DNA from: Phycisphaeraceae bacterium
Lineage (GTDB): Bacteria > Planctomycetota > Phycisphaerae > Phycisphaerales > UBA1924
Assembly: GCA_019636655.1 (NCBI GenBank)
Contig: JAHBXB010000005.1
Span: 1 to 64,000, forward strand
Reading direction: 5' to 3'
Length of the DNA: 64,000 nucleotides
Numbering within the stretch: position 1 is the stretch's first letter; the number at the start of each line of letters is the position of its first letter. This document shows, piece by piece, positions 29,875 through 34,939 of this stretch. A program made the translations under genes and the position numbers. The notes beneath the pieces are model-generated. The model saw nothing but the letters and a program-made list of their open reading frames with translations. It made no database searches and was not told where the DNA came from.

Positions 29875-30645
29875 CTAGAGCAGGTTTCGCCCCCCGTCGA
29901 GCCGCAGGATCTCCCCGGTCACGTACGTCGCATCCATCGCCAGCCACCGCACCGCCTCCGCCGCATCCTCCGGCGTCCCGCTTCTCCCCAGCGGCACCCG
30001 GCTGAGGTACGCCTGCTGCATCGCCTTGTCAGATTCGTGTCCGCTCTCCGGGAACGCCACCACTCCCGGCGCGACGCCGTTGACGCGCACCCGAGGCGCC
30101 AGGTCCCGTGCCATCGACCGCACCATCTCCGCCAGCGCCGCCTTGGACATCGCATACGACGCAAACTCCCGCCGCGGCAGGCCGTGCTCGCCGAGCGCAT
30201 GGATATCGCACATCGCCACGACCGCGCCCCCGCCCGCGCGGGCGGACCTCGACAGGGCTGCCGCGAGCCCCTTGGTCAGCAGCAGCGGAGAGAGGGCGTT
30301 GACCGTGTAGTCCTCCACCGCCCGCGCCGGCGTGATCTCCGCCAGCGGCGAGGGGGAGTACGCGGACGCATTGTGCACCAGCACATCCAGCGGCGCTCTG
30401 TCGTCCGTGGCGTACCCCGCCGCGAATCGCTCTACCTCCTCGGGTCTCGCGAGGTCCAGCCGGCGCCACTCGATCCCGACCGCCCCGGCCCCCTTCAGTC
30501 GCGCCGTCGCCTCGTCGATCTCGTCGCCGCTGCTCCGGTAGGTCAGCACCAGCCGCCACCCCCGCGAGGCGAACGCCATCGCCGTCGCGAGCCCCACCCG
30601 GCGGGCAGCGCCCGTGATCATCACCGTCCCATCAGCGCCGCTCAT
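29875..30645 (-). CDS. SDR-family oxidoreductase, pteridine reductase-like
   Basis: The 256-aa short-chain dehydrogenase has the cofactor motif TGAARRVG (about 11-18), NAS (about 91-93), a catalytic YAMSK pair (Tyr about 163, Lys about 167) and the C-terminal VTGEILRLDGGRNLL. TGAARRVG with an Arg pair after the Ala run is typical of NADPH-using FolM/pteridine reductase relatives, but 3-oxoacyl-ACP reductase-like activity cannot be excluded. The start ATG overlaps the stop of the small membrane gene upstream (ATGA at 30642-30645). It is convergent with the TPR gene. Confidence 0.82.
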   Translation of the reverse strand: MSGADGTVMITGAARRVGLATAMAFASRGWRLVLTYRSSGDEIDEATARLKGAGAVGIEWRRLDLARPEEVERFAAGYATDDRAPLDVLVHNASAYSPSPLAEITPARAVEDYTVNALSPLLLTKGLAAALSRSARAGGGAVVAMCDIHALGEHGLPRREFASYAMSKAALAEMVRSMARDLAPRVRVNGVAPGVVAFPESGHESDKAMQQAYLSRVPLGRSGTPEDAAEAVRWLAMDATYVTGEILRLDGGRNLL

Positions 30646-30986
30646 GCGACACCGCCGCCGCGTCCGTTGCGCGGTCCCTGCGGATCCTCCGGCTCATCAT
30701 CGAGCCCGTGTTCATGCTCCCCCTCGTCCTCCCCCGGCACCTCGATCGGCTTCGCCCTCCGTCCGGCCTCGAACCATGGATCGATGTTGTGCACGCTCCG
30801 CGGCCCGGGCTGACCGCCGCCCTTCGACCGCATGATCCGCATCCGCACCACCCGCTGCACGATCAGCAGGATGATCGCCAGCAGCAGCACCACGATCACC
30901 AGCAGGGTGCCTGCCAGCAGTTTCGCGTCCCGGCGGACCGGGTCCGCCGCCGCCACGATCGTCAGTATCCAGTCGCCCGCGGCCAT
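30642..30986 (-). CDS. Small single-pass membrane protein
   Basis: The 114-aa product has one membrane helix (about 25-45, LLAGTLLVIVVLLLAIILLIV) followed by a basic patch (QRVVRMRIMRSKGG) and an acidic, Gly-rich tail. The basic patch after the helix predicts N-out, C-in. No family is recognised. ATG 30986 was chosen; an upstream in-frame ATG at 31025 is possible. It overlaps the downstream SDR start by 4 bp and is 35 bp after the sigma-operon membrane protein. Confidence 0.7.
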   Translation of the reverse strand: MAAGDWILTIVAAADPVRRDAKLLAGTLLVIVVLLLAIILLIVQRVVRMRIMRSKGGGQPGPRSVHNIDPWFEAGRRAKPIEVPGEDEGEHEHGLDDEPEDPQGPRNGRGGGVA

Positions 30987-31021
30987 GCGGTCACTATACA
31001 ACACGCCAGCGGCGCACCAAG

Positions 31022-31576
31022 TCACCCACCCGTGCCGGGCGAGCGTGTCCCCATCGCCGTCGAACTCACCAGCATCGTCCGCCCTTCGCTCCTGATCATC
31101 CCCGCCGGCCGCCCCGCCCGCGCCAGCAGGTCCAGCAACTCGTCATCACCGATCCAGGTCGCCGCGGAATGCTCCGTCGCCGCCGCGCTGTAGCGGGCCA
31201 CGATCGACGGATCCGTCTCGACCACCACGACATTGATGTGCGACAGCGCCGCCACCCCCGGTGGTCGCTCGGCCGGCGCCGTCTCGTTTTCGCGAACGAC
31301 CCTCGTGCCGCCCGGCTTCTCCACCGCGACGTTCACCTGCGCCCCCCTTGTCCCCACTCCCCCGTCCGGCCACACCCGCCACGCAACCCCGACGACGACT
31401 CCAAGCACCGCGACCCCGGCCCCGATGCCCACCGCTCGTCGAACCGTCCTCGTCCTTGCCTGTGCCCGCGCCGCCCGCCGCTGCACATCGGCCAGGATCT
31501 CCCGCTTCCGCGCCGCTCCTTCGCGCGAGAGCGTCTCGCCACCGTCCCCGATCCTCATCCAGTCGTGCCCGTTCAT
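31022..31576 (-). CDS. Membrane protein encoded with a sigma factor (possible anti-sigma factor)
   Basis: This 184-aa protein has a cytosolic helical N-terminus of about 45 residues (EGAARKREILADVQRRAARAQ), one membrane helix (about 47-68, AVGIGAGVAVLGVVVGVAW) and a short outer domain ending GRTMLVSSTAMGTRS. That layout fits a single-pass anti-sigma factor, but the zinc-type H-C-C motif is absent. The ATG overlaps the sigma gene stop (ATGA at 31573-31576). Function as anti-sigma factor is inference from position and topology only. Confidence 0.6.
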   Translation of the reverse strand: MNGHDWMRIGDGGETLSREGAARKREILADVQRRAARAQARTRTVRRAVGIGAGVAVLGVVVGVAWRVWPDGGVGTRGAQVNVAVEKPGGTRVVRENETAPAERPPGVAALSHINVVVVETDPSIVARYSAAATEHSAATWIGDDELLDLLARAGRPAGMIRSEGRTMLVSSTAMGTRSPGTGG

Positions 31577-32304
31577 GACCACCACTCCTGCGCAGCGACC
31601 CTCAGCCGCGCCAACACCCGCCGGATCCGCCCGTGCGCCGCTCCCTTCGTCACGCCCAGCACCGCGGCCGCCCGCTCCAGCGTCTGCCCTCGGCCGAACC
31701 GCAGCGACAGCAACTCCCGATCCCCTTCATCAAGTCCTCCAAACACCGCGTTGATCCACTGCTCCAACGCCTCCCGCGACTCGTTCAACTCGTCCTCCGC
31801 CGCGACCCGCGGCTGGTCCGCCGCCGATCGCCCCGCCTCCCTCGCCCGCCTCCGCGATTCCCCCCGCAACCGGTCCAGCGCCGCCGTCCGCACCACCCGC
31901 GACATCCACCGGTCCAGTTCCTCCTTTGATGCGATCCGCCCGATCACCCTGCGGGCCCCGATCACCCTGACAAACGCATCGTGCACCACGTCCAGGCAGA
32001 ACGCCTCGTCTCTCCCCGTCAGCCGCCGCGACATCGCATACGCCCGATCGAACCACTCCTCATACAAACGCTCGATCGCCTCCGCCTCCCCACGTGCGAC
32101 GCCCCGCCACGATCCGTCGTCCGCGCCCGTCCCGGCGTTCCCGCCCGCGGCCACCGCGCGCGACGGCGCCGCCCGCCCCGGTGTCTCCCCCGGCGCTCGG
32201 ACGGCTTTGCCGTCGCGGTTGGTCATCTCGGCGTGCGGACCCGGCATGCGACTCCCGGTCAGGAGCGTTCGTGCGGTGGCCGTCCTTTCGGCGAGCGACG
32301 TCAC
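31573..32304 (-). CDS. ECF-type RNA polymerase sigma factor
   Basis: The 243-aa protein contains sigma region 2 (about 85-140: YEEWFDRAYAMSRRLTG and CLDVVHDAFVRVIG) and region 4 with the HTH (about 195-235: LSLRFGRGQTLERAAAVLGVTKGAAHGRIRRVLARLR). Regions 1 and 3 are missing, as in ECF factors. The N-terminal about 65 residues are unrelated low-complexity sequence, so an internal start is possible. The annotated GTG 32304 overlaps the stop of the upstream secretin-N-like gene (GTGA), and the ATG of the following membrane protein overlaps this stop. Confidence 0.85.
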   Translation of the reverse strand: MTSLAERTATARTLLTGSRMPGPHAEMTNRDGKAVRAPGETPGRAAPSRAVAAGGNAGTGADDGSWRGVARGEAEAIERLYEEWFDRAYAMSRRLTGRDEAFCLDVVHDAFVRVIGARRVIGRIASKEELDRWMSRVVRTAALDRLRGESRRRAREAGRSAADQPRVAAEDELNESREALEQWINAVFGGLDEGDRELLSLRFGRGQTLERAAAVLGVTKGAAHGRIRRVLARLRVAAQEWWS

Positions 32305-33602
32305 TGGGGCTGCTGGTCCTTCTTGGTTACCTCCCGCCCATTGACCTCAGGGAGATTCGGGTCGTTCCCTTTCACGCGCCGGATCGCCGTCAGCACCCGC
32401 GACACCGCCGCCTGCTCACCCGGCGCCGCCCGCACGATGATCTCCCGTTGCTCGGCGTTCACGGCATCTCCGTGAGCCACCACCGCCTGGCACGCGGCGA
32501 CCAACTCGGGCATCGCCGCCATCATGTCCTCCACATCATAAACCATCACCTGCACCCCCAGGCTCTCCCGCTCCGCCGCGGCCACCGCGGTGACATCCTC
32601 CAGTTCCGCCTCCGCTTGCCGCATCTTCAGCCGAGCCGACTCCAGCGTGTCGAGCCGGCGCTGCACGAGCGCCCGGGCCTGCGTCAGTTCATCCGTGGGG
32701 GCCACGCCCGCCTCCACCCGCTTGGCGAACTCGTTCGCGGCCTCGCGTGCTCGCGCGAACTCTCCTTCCGACCGCCGGATGTCGTCCATTGCTCGCTCCA
32801 GCGCCCGCTGCGCCGCGGCCACCGCCTTCGCCCGATCCCGCTGGCGCTCCGCCGCGGTCATCGCCGCGACCCGGCGATCCACGATGTCCCCCTGCATCGT
32901 CTGGAGGATGCTCTTGATCGTCGTCAGTTGCTGCGGGAGGGCCCGCACGATCAGCACGCCCGAGTCCTTGTGATAGCGGATTTGCGGCTGCTCGGCCTCG
33001 GCGCCGGCCAGCTGCGCCGCCGCATCGATCGCCGTCAGCACCGATTCGATCGGAACACCGGGTCCGGCACCCCGGTCCATCACCGGATTCGTGAGTTCCC
33101 GCACCGAGAAGACCGCCGTCTCAGGCCCTGGCGCTGGGAACGGGCTCTGCGGCATTGGCTGCGGAATGAAGTTGGGTTTCGATGCGACCGAATACACCCC
33201 CGTTCCCGCCACCACATCCCCGACCGTCTGCACGTACGCGGTTCGTCCTTCCGCTCTCGCCATCATCGGCAGCACCTCCAGCGCCGACGACACCGCCACT
33301 CCCTTCATCTCCGTCGGCGGCACCATCATGCTCGCCGCATCCGACGACACCATGATGTTCACGTTCCCCGGTGCCGCCGCCTGGATCGCCTTCACATACT
33401 CCGACAGCGTCCCCCCGGGGAACTTCAGCGAGATCACCATCTCCGCCGCACGAGTCGCCGGCTCCACCCGGTTGGCGTTCCCACCCCGCGCCGGCTGACC
33501 CTGCTGCGCCGCCGCCGGCGCAGGCCACATCGCACTCAGCACCCCGGCCGCCACCCCGATCACCCCGTACCGCGCGAACGCCGCCACTGTGCCGCCCATC
33601 AT
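32301..33602 (-). CDS. Periplasmic secretin-N/STN-domain protein with coiled coil, no secretin barrel
   Basis: The 433-aa product has a signal peptide (about 1-32, ending APAAAQ) and a region like secretin N0/STN domains (about 55-110: ISLKFPGGTLSEYVKAIQ...VSSALEVLPMM). A second secretin-N-like stretch (about 170-235: ESVLTAID, IRYHKDSGVLIVRALPQQLTTIKSILQTM) is followed by a coiled coil (about 240-345) and a short tail. No C-terminal secretin barrel is present. It is the first gene of a tightly overlapped set with a sigma factor and a membrane protein. AAGGAGG precedes a double ATG at 33602. Confidence 0.75.
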   Translation of the reverse strand: MMGGTVAAFARYGVIGVAAGVLSAMWPAPAAAQQGQPARGGNANRVEPATRAAEMVISLKFPGGTLSEYVKAIQAAAPGNVNIMVSSDAASMMVPPTEMKGVAVSSALEVLPMMARAEGRTAYVQTVGDVVAGTGVYSVASKPNFIPQPMPQSPFPAPGPETAVFSVRELTNPVMDRGAGPGVPIESVLTAIDAAAQLAGAEAEQPQIRYHKDSGVLIVRALPQQLTTIKSILQTMQGDIVDRRVAAMTAAERQRDRAKAVAAAQRALERAMDDIRRSEGEFARAREAANEFAKRVEAGVAPTDELTQARALVQRRLDTLESARLKMRQAEAELEDVTAVAAAERESLGVQVMVYDVEDMMAAMPELVAACQAVVAHGDAVNAEQREIIVRAAPGEQAAVSRVLTAIRRVKGNDPNLPEVNGREVTKKDQQPQ

Positions 33603-33804
33603 GAAGCCTCCTTGGCCGCCCCCGAATACCAGGACAACGCCGCCGACGTGCCGGTGTGGCGCTCGCCGCCTCGATTCTCACGGTTTTGCTCGCCGCGTCA
33701 GGCTAGAGTTGCGACCAAAGCGCCCCCGCCGCGTTGGCGAGAGGGCGAAGAAAGCCCGGGCCAGAGCCCGCGGCTGGGGAGGGGAACGCGGAGCCTTGAC
33801 CGCC

Positions 33805-34939
33805 ATGCATTTCGACGCCCACCAGCCCGTCATCGATGATCTCGAGGCGCGGATCTTGACGATCCGCGACTCTCTTTAACTTCGACACCAAGAAGCAGAC
33901 GATCGCCGAACTCGAACGCCAGATGGCTGATCCCAACTTCTGGGACGCCCCCGACCGCGCCCGCAAGGTCGTCGGCGACATGAAGGGCCTCAAGGCCCAG
34001 CTCGACCCCCTCACCAAGGTCATCGCCGATTTCGAGGACGCCCGCGTCGCCTACCAGATGTCCAGGGAGGCCGGCGGCGACAAGGACCTCCTCCAGGAAG
34101 CCGACGAGCAGCTCCACTCCCTCGTCTCTCGGATGGCCAAGGTCGAACTCCAGTCCCTCCTCTCCGGCAAGCACGACTTCCGCAACTGCTTCCTCACCAT
34201 CTCCGCAGGCGACGGCGGCACCGAGGCCAACGACTGGTGCGAGATGCTCCACCGCATGTACATCTACTACTGCGAGAAGATGGGCTGGCAACTCGAGGAG
34301 GTCGAGAAGTCCTTCGGCTCCGAGGTCGGCCTCGATTCCGTCACCTTCCACGTCAAGGGCCAGTTCGCCTTCGGCTACCTCTCCTGCGAGCGCGGCACCC
34401 ACCGCCTCGCCCGCGTCTCCCCCTTCAACGCCCAGGGCAAGCGGCAGACCTCCTTCGCCACCGTCGACGTCACCCCCGAGTTCGAGGAGACCGACCTCGA
34501 AATCCCCGAGAAGGACCTCGAGATCACCCCCTTCGTCCGCGCCTCCGGGCCCGGCGGCCAGAACGTCAACAAGGTCGCCACCGCCATCCGCCTCGTCCAC
34601 AAGCCCACCGGCATCATGGTCGTCGCCAGCACCTACCGCGACCAGCCCCAGAACCGCAAGCAGGCCATGTCCGTCCTCCGCGCCAAGCTCGAGCAGATCG
34701 AGGAAGAGCGCCGCGAGCGCGAGATCGCCGCTGCCACCGGCGGCGCCGTCGAGCGCGGCTGGGGCACCCAGATCCGCTCCTACGTCTTCTACGACAACCG
34801 CGTCAAGGACCACCGCACCGGCTACGAAATGTCCGACTACGAGCGAGTCCTCCGCGGCGAGATCGAGGGCTTTGTCGACGCCGAACTCCAGCGCCGCCGC
34901 AAGGAGAAGGCCCAGGCCGCCATGACCGCGCGAAAGTAA
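33805..34939 (+). CDS. prfB: Peptide chain release factor 2 with programmed +1 frameshift
   Basis: RF2 recognises UGA and UAA and triggers peptide release. The message is read as 24 codons from ATG 33805 to CTT (33874-33876), meets TAA at 33877-33879, and continues in the +1 frame at AAC (33878) to the stop at 34939, giving about 377 aa. The joint peptide DSLNFDTKKQTI matches the E. coli RF2 junction YLDYDAKKERL in position. Downstream are the codon-recognition SPF (RVSPFNAQGKRQ) and the catalytic GGQ (ASGPGGQNVNKVATA). The stop at the slip site is UAA, not the usual UGA, and no AGGGGG-like internal Shine-Dalgarno precedes it. Confidence 0.92.
33871..33880 (+). promoter_or_regulatory. prfB recoding site (CTT TAA C)
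   Basis: The zero-frame stop TAA follows a slippery CTT; sliding by one base puts UUU in the P site and AAC in the A site. Frame 1 carries the N-terminus and frame 2 the remainder of RF2, so the shift is required for a full-length protein. Confidence 0.85.

Follow-up and report, generated by a model that had tools for sequence, protein, structure and literature searches.

Within the window, the 64,000-nucleotide stretch of DNA that was analysed, three genes lie one after the other on the minus strand. P1 (32301-33602) encodes an exported periplasmic protein of 433 aa that consists of a signal peptide, secretin N0 and N1 domains and a coiled-coil hairpin, and is barrel-less. P2 (31573-32304) encodes an ECF-type sigma factor of 243 aa if counted from GTG 32304, with alternative starts at 32247, 32226 and 32154, and P3 (31022-31576) encodes a single-pass membrane protein of 184 aa that is predicted to be an anti-sigma factor. 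The original prediction had named these genes, all three of which are present, and had described them as overlapping by 4 bp. For P2 and P3 this overlap (ATGA) stands if P3 starts at ATG 31576, but for P1 and P2 it holds only with the sigma start at GTG 32304. Relatives of P2 lack the first approximately 60 residues and the conserved sigma core begins approximately 60 residues past GTG 32304; judged from the sequence, a true start at 32247, 32226 or 32154 is therefore as likely as one at GTG 32304. Of the 69 complete triads that were collected, 66 show overlapping frames for P2 and P3 (P3 start codon 4, 8, 11 or 14 bp over the sigma stop), a figure that is an upper estimate, the P3 start having been taken nearest to the sigma stop. 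Gene overlap is a usual sign of a sigma/anti-sigma pair that is made together.

Domain composition of the three proteins

P1 begins with a signal peptide of the AAA-Q type. In Pfam the window copy matched Secretin_N only, below threshold (E=0.036), while 36 of 64 P1 family members matched the same domain (best 1.5e-6); Pfam STN was matched by neither the window protein nor the family members. An AlphaFold2 model was built on a 64-sequence alignment, with pLDDT mostly >90 in the folded parts. The N0/STN-like domain (residues 56-142; 33177-33437, minus strand), assigned from the model and from matches to secretin N0, has the predicted order beta-alpha-beta-beta-alpha-beta-beta, with 10-residue block means of pLDDT between 72 and 97 over residues 61-130. 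It is followed by an N1/Secretin_N-like domain (residues 161-221; 32940-33122, minus strand) and, in the same model, by a long two-helix coiled-coil hairpin (residues 223-347; 32562-32936, minus strand). P1 relatives range in length from 147 to 571 aa, and the hairpin is therefore probably not constant. Neither a barrel nor a plug is present, as PF00263 was matched neither by the window copy nor by the family and the AlphaFold2 model contains none; of the parts of a secretin, P1 has the N0-N1 periplasmic domains. The N1 domain holds a near-invariant histidine, His211 (32970-32972), which 99% of the 69 P1 proteins share across classes and which may serve in metal or pH sensing or in docking.

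The reading of P1 as a barrel-less protein with STN-like and secretin-N domains gained support from a Foldseek search of the PDB with the P1 model. Secretin N0-N1 domains were the best matches, headed by GspD in the GspC-GspD complex 3oss (E=3.6e-5) and followed by EscC, GspD, PilQ, MxiD, InvG and XcpQ. By its predicted N0/STN-like fold P1 would carry an STN-type domain, but the domains resemble secretin N0-N1 (GspD, EscC, MxiD) and not the TonB-receptor signalling domain alone. This fold, together with six secretin genes in the same genome (G000) and a P3 topology that is also like that of GspC, the partner of GspD N0, raises the possibility that P1 is part of a secretion or pilus machine in which N0-N1 would co-assemble with or check one of the six secretins, with the sigma circuit responding to that machine. 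No secretion or pilus gene recurs beside the triad in the 69 loci and no sequence link between P3 and GspC was found, and we regard this explanation as improbable. The likeness to GspD N0-N1 and GspC lies in the P1 fold and in a bitopic inner-membrane partner with a linker and a small periplasmic domain; the triad differs in that it lacks the barrel and other T2SS genes and has a sigma factor as its constant partner.

P2 matched the sigma70-ECF model TIGR02937 with E=3.7e-18 and 65.7 bits, above the cut-off of 42.9, and the Pfam region 4 model Sigma70_r4 with E=1.2e-9. Region 2 is present, and its score of 22.7 in the window copy is just short of the Pfam cut-off of 24. With regions 2 and 4 only and the ECF model above its cut-off, P2 is an ECF sigma factor, and its relatives form a conserved subfamily. 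Among the best 25 NCBIfam families only TIGR02937 passed, the named ECF subfamily and equivalog models all being far below cut-off; P2 is therefore left without an ECF group. None of the papers searched describes a planctomycete unit that joins a secretin N0 domain to an anti-sigma factor, and an earlier ECF group number for P2 is possible.

P3 is made up of a short basic cytoplasmic helix (LSxxGxxRRxxxL), a membrane helix, a Pro-rich linker and a small periplasmic helix-hairpin domain. The anti-sigma-like topology proposed earlier was confirmed: there is one membrane helix, oriented N-in by the positive-inside rule, and 65 of the 69 P3 proteins have one membrane segment. Over the 69 proteins the N side has a median of 40 aa and a net charge of +5, the C side 110 aa and a net charge of -3. 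In the model, residues 18-68 form a single continuous helix from the cytoplasm through the membrane. The conserved C-terminal domain (residues 142-178, around WIGDDELLDLLARAGRPAGMIRSEGR; 31043-31153, minus strand) consists of a helix and a beta-hairpin with conserved columns, modelled with pLDDT >90 for residues 141-170.

P3 matched no family in Pfam or NCBIfam, and no family recurred among 67 relatives. Neither a known anti-sigma domain nor a FecR-type match was found in 67 P3 proteins, and the zinc motif HxxxCxxC occurs in 0 of 69. A fold search with part of the P3 model gave no match above noise, so that a known fold is still conceivable, and the profiles of P1 and P3, compared in view of a common STN fold, did not match. 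Class I anti-sigma domains have a mean length of 101 aa (PMC7406223); P3 has neither a cytoplasmic domain of about 100 aa nor the Hx3Cx2C of the zinc types. In the class II factor CnrY two short helices wrap the sigma factor (PMC7406223). The length of the P3 tail fits this class, although the model shows one long helix, and no sequence similarity beyond chance was detected between P3 and CnrY (CnrY only E=5.8, in the membrane-proximal part). CnrY, which works with two short helices, is the nearest precedent for so short a tail.

The missing anti-sigma domain and the shortness of the tail could also mean that P3 is not an anti-sigma factor at all, with P2 regulated through its amount alone and driving an unrelated envelope pair made up of P1 and P3. 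The overlap with the sigma gene, the full co-inheritance and the precedent of CnrY speak against such an arrangement, which is considered highly improbable; P3 is probably the anti-sigma factor that holds P2 in check.

Conservation and genomic neighbourhood

Wider profile searches for the triad proteins took in 298 genomes from the class and 392 from the phylum, and the fetched loci were searched again with profiles built in this analysis, giving the 69 complete triads. The counts leave out weak P1 matches in the class that fall on profile positions 228-310, as these are coiled-coil noise. The order P1-P2-P3 on one strand was found in all 69 complete loci, seven of which (L154-L160) come from genomes outside the class; the original prediction was to be refuted by a lack of conserved operon order, and it survived this check, the order extending far across the phylum. 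A scan of the public genome collection with the sigma factor only gave 80 loci, 71 of them with P1 before and P3 after the sigma gene. The other nine comprise six cut by contig ends, one without a recognisable P1 (L320) and two unrelated sigma factors. A search of 101 relatives at the protein level detected P1 in 37 genomes and P3 in 21, the two at matching places. In the named genome collection the relatives are nearly all Phycisphaerales or Planctomycetota MAGs, which marks the host as a Phycisphaerales-type planctomycete. The P1-P2-P3 trio is a real unit common to planctomycete bacteria; the order in 69 of 69 loci and the sigma-first sampling rule out a chance juxtaposition of three genes.

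Two genomes (L097, L173) have P1 but neither the sigma factor nor P3, from which it follows that P1 may have work of its own. One locus (L074) is seemingly decayed, with P1 and sigma parts inside one short frame. In another (L171, G317:C6) P3 is followed by a further P1-like gene, and the sigma/P3 pair is thereby flanked by P1 on either side.

No constant neighbour beyond the triad was found among the 69 loci. On the 3' side of the triad in the window (29875-31025, minus strand) are P4 (30642-31025), a small one-helix membrane protein with a likely start at ATG 30986, and P5 (29875-30645), a pteridine-reductase-like SDR; an SDR gene follows the triad in 18 of the 69 loci. P4 and P5 form a pair that adjoins the triad only in part of one family and is separate from it in certain relatives (L074, L177), and both were rejected as parts of the system. 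The divergent prfB gene lies upstream of the triad in about half of the loci, which belong to one family. Retention of the triad merely through this neighbour is ruled out, as families in which prfB does not adjoin have the triad and the promoter as well.

The prfB gene of the window (33806-34939, plus strand), encoding release factor 2, has the programmed frameshift site CTT TAA C with the stop UAA; the textbook site is CTT TGA C. Of 34 prfB copies in loci of the prfB-adjoining family, 22 have CTTTAAC alone, 4 CTTTGAC alone, 5 both and 3 neither. UAA is also read by RF1, so the autoregulatory logic of this prfB is worth attention.

Predicted promoter element and regulon

An ECF-type promoter, GCGCCACA-N10-GGCG-n-CGTT, is predicted upstream of P1 (33635-33662, minus strand), with the -35-like part at 33655-33662 and the -10-like CGTT at 33636-33639; CGTT is a typical ECF -10. 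The element ends approximately 32 bp before the P1 ATG, and a Shine-Dalgarno-like AAGGAGG, read from the sequence (33607-33613, minus strand), lies in between. The family pattern before P1, GCGCSMAA-N10-GGCGnCGTT, keeps a fixed spacing across classes. A promoter weight matrix was made from the first 72 loci and applied to a test set of 40 loci sharing no 40-mer with those 72, with a 1% threshold from shuffles. The element scored above this threshold in 34 of the 40 independent loci (median 18.5 bits vs -1.1 for the null), and the window copy scored 28.65 bits against the same null median of -1.1. It is also present outside the class (L156, L157, L160), where the neighbour is not prfB. This conserved ECF-like promoter before P1 is new here.

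Throughout the 3.66 Mb of the organism's own genome, the family pattern is matched exactly at the operon site and nowhere else. With up to one mismatch there were 6 sites vs 15 in the control, and those examined among the five one-mismatch sites are in or antisense to coding frames. There was no sign of a large regulon: across 25 genomes the strict motif had approximately 17 operon sites and approximately 20 scattered ones vs 10 in the control. A scan of five genomes gave one conserved extra site, at a sigma gene and a tatC-like gene and with a changed -10, which was judged unsure. Two species of one genus (g64; L235, L237) have a near-match, GCGCGAAATCGGA...GGCGAT, in the gap that separates a tatC-like gene from a divergent sigma gene. 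We infer that P2 recognises the element before P1, and the promoter predicts autoregulation with a narrow regulon. Since the sole exact motif match in the genome is the operon site, the targets of P2 with this form of site are most likely its own operon and at most a few other genes; a degenerate regulon of P2 is conceivable.

The position of the sole strong promoter site leads to the main rival explanation, in which P2 and P3 sense envelope stress themselves and P1, as the main product of the regulon, is the output, an envelope protein that might serve as a periplasmic adaptor or help a secretin. Room for this explanation is left by the orphan P1 genes of two genomes and by the promoter, and the helical hairpin of P1 resembles the HlyD/MacA adaptor hairpins (Z about 11-12), though hairpins of this type are common. 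The promoter is not decisive, as the sigma factors of cell-surface signalling often drive the genes of their transducers too; N0-type domains typically dock inner-membrane partners, and the length of P1 varies widely. On this balance P1 as output is rather unlikely.

Relation to known systems and proposed signalling

The original prediction had held a soluble STN-like protein in place of a receptor to be a possible undescribed design. Such a design has already been reported: in PUMA3 of Pseudomonas aeruginosa the gene of VreA, a mostly soluble barrel-less STN protein, precedes those of the sigma factor VreI and the anti-sigma factor VreR (PMC2729926, PMC4971064), with an overlap of 4 bp between vreA and vreI (PMC2729926, PMC4971064). 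As PUMA3 has a barrel-less STN protein, a sigma factor and an anti-sigma factor in the same order, the architecture is known in kind. The triad shares with it a barrel-less soluble STN-type protein, an ECF sigma factor and a membrane regulator in identical gene order. VreA, compared by its description, consists of an STN and a TolA/TonB-like C-terminal domain, whereas the P1 model consists of N0, N1 and a coiled-coil hairpin; VreR is described as a cell-surface-signalling anti-sigma factor, whereas P3 matches no such family; and expression of vreAIR relies on PhoB rather than on VreI (PMC4971064), whereas the triad operon has an apparent promoter of its own sigma factor. The triad seems to resemble PUMA3 without relatedness, differing from it in every part.

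With FecA-FecR-FecI and PupB-PupR the triad has in common an STN-type periplasmic input, a single-pass regulator and an ECF sigma factor. In PupB-PupR iron signalling an STN-type domain docks the FecR-type regulator, and in PupR the anti-sigma domain has 82 residues and the periplasmic domain consists of two parts (PMC7186176), whereas P3 has approximately 40 cytoplasmic residues and a periplasmic domain of approximately 40 residues. The triad contains no TonB-dependent receptor with an STN domain, and none recurs as a neighbour. The comparison with Fec-type systems made earlier holds as a statement of how the triad may work; P3 has no FecR family match and no FecR domain occurs anywhere in the organism's own genome. 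CnrY-CnrX-CnrH has, like the triad, a very short cytoplasmic anti-sigma part, one membrane helix, a separate periplasmic partner and an ECF sigma factor; CnrX is of the metal sensor type, whereas P1 is a secretin N0-N1 protein.

By a modest margin of belief we favour a three-gene envelope-signalling module in which P1 signals to P3, P3 is the anti-sigma factor for P2, and P2 drives the transcription of its own operon. The basic cytoplasmic helix of P3, approximately 40 residues long, would hold P2, and its small periplasmic domain would be the receiving end. Exported P1 would sit in the periplasm, where its N0-N1 part would act on the P3 periplasmic domain and set the hold of P3 on the sigma factor; the contact may follow that of GspD N0 with GspC or of a TonB-transducer STN with a FecR-type regulator. 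On a change in the state of the envelope P3 would let go of P2, which would transcribe P1-P2-P3 from the conserved promoter upstream of P1, and the circuit could amplify or reset itself through its own promoter.

The observations counted for the module are the co-inheritance of the genes in constant order, the P2/P3 overlap, the P3 topology, the predicted secretin N0-N1 fold, the conserved promoter-like element and the lack of a constant neighbour. Counted against it are a P3 with no anti-sigma family or zinc motif and a tail far shorter than a class I domain, the two genomes that keep P1 without the sigma factor and P3, the regulon beyond the operon that was not found, and a P3 periplasmic domain with no clear structural match. 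Column covariation among the three proteins was above shuffles for all three pairs alike, with neither P2-P3 nor P1-P3 singled out; it therefore reflects shared descent and separates none of the readings.

The original observation stands and is strengthened, and its interpretation is supported in part: the triad is real and probably signals as had been proposed. More tentatively, and with doubt prevailing, it might be a separate ECF signalling class, mainly of Planctomycetota, with a free N0-N1 messenger, a new minimal anti-sigma factor and a self-targeting sigma factor, and might report on the assembly of secretins or of the outer membrane. For most ECF sigma factors of planctomycetes no input is known. 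P2 has a conserved pair of partners and a sharply defined promoter, and input, switch and output are therefore testable with a reporter. If the proposed signalling is true, sigma signalling would have recruited secretin-type N0 domains on more than one occasion and independently of TonB receptors.
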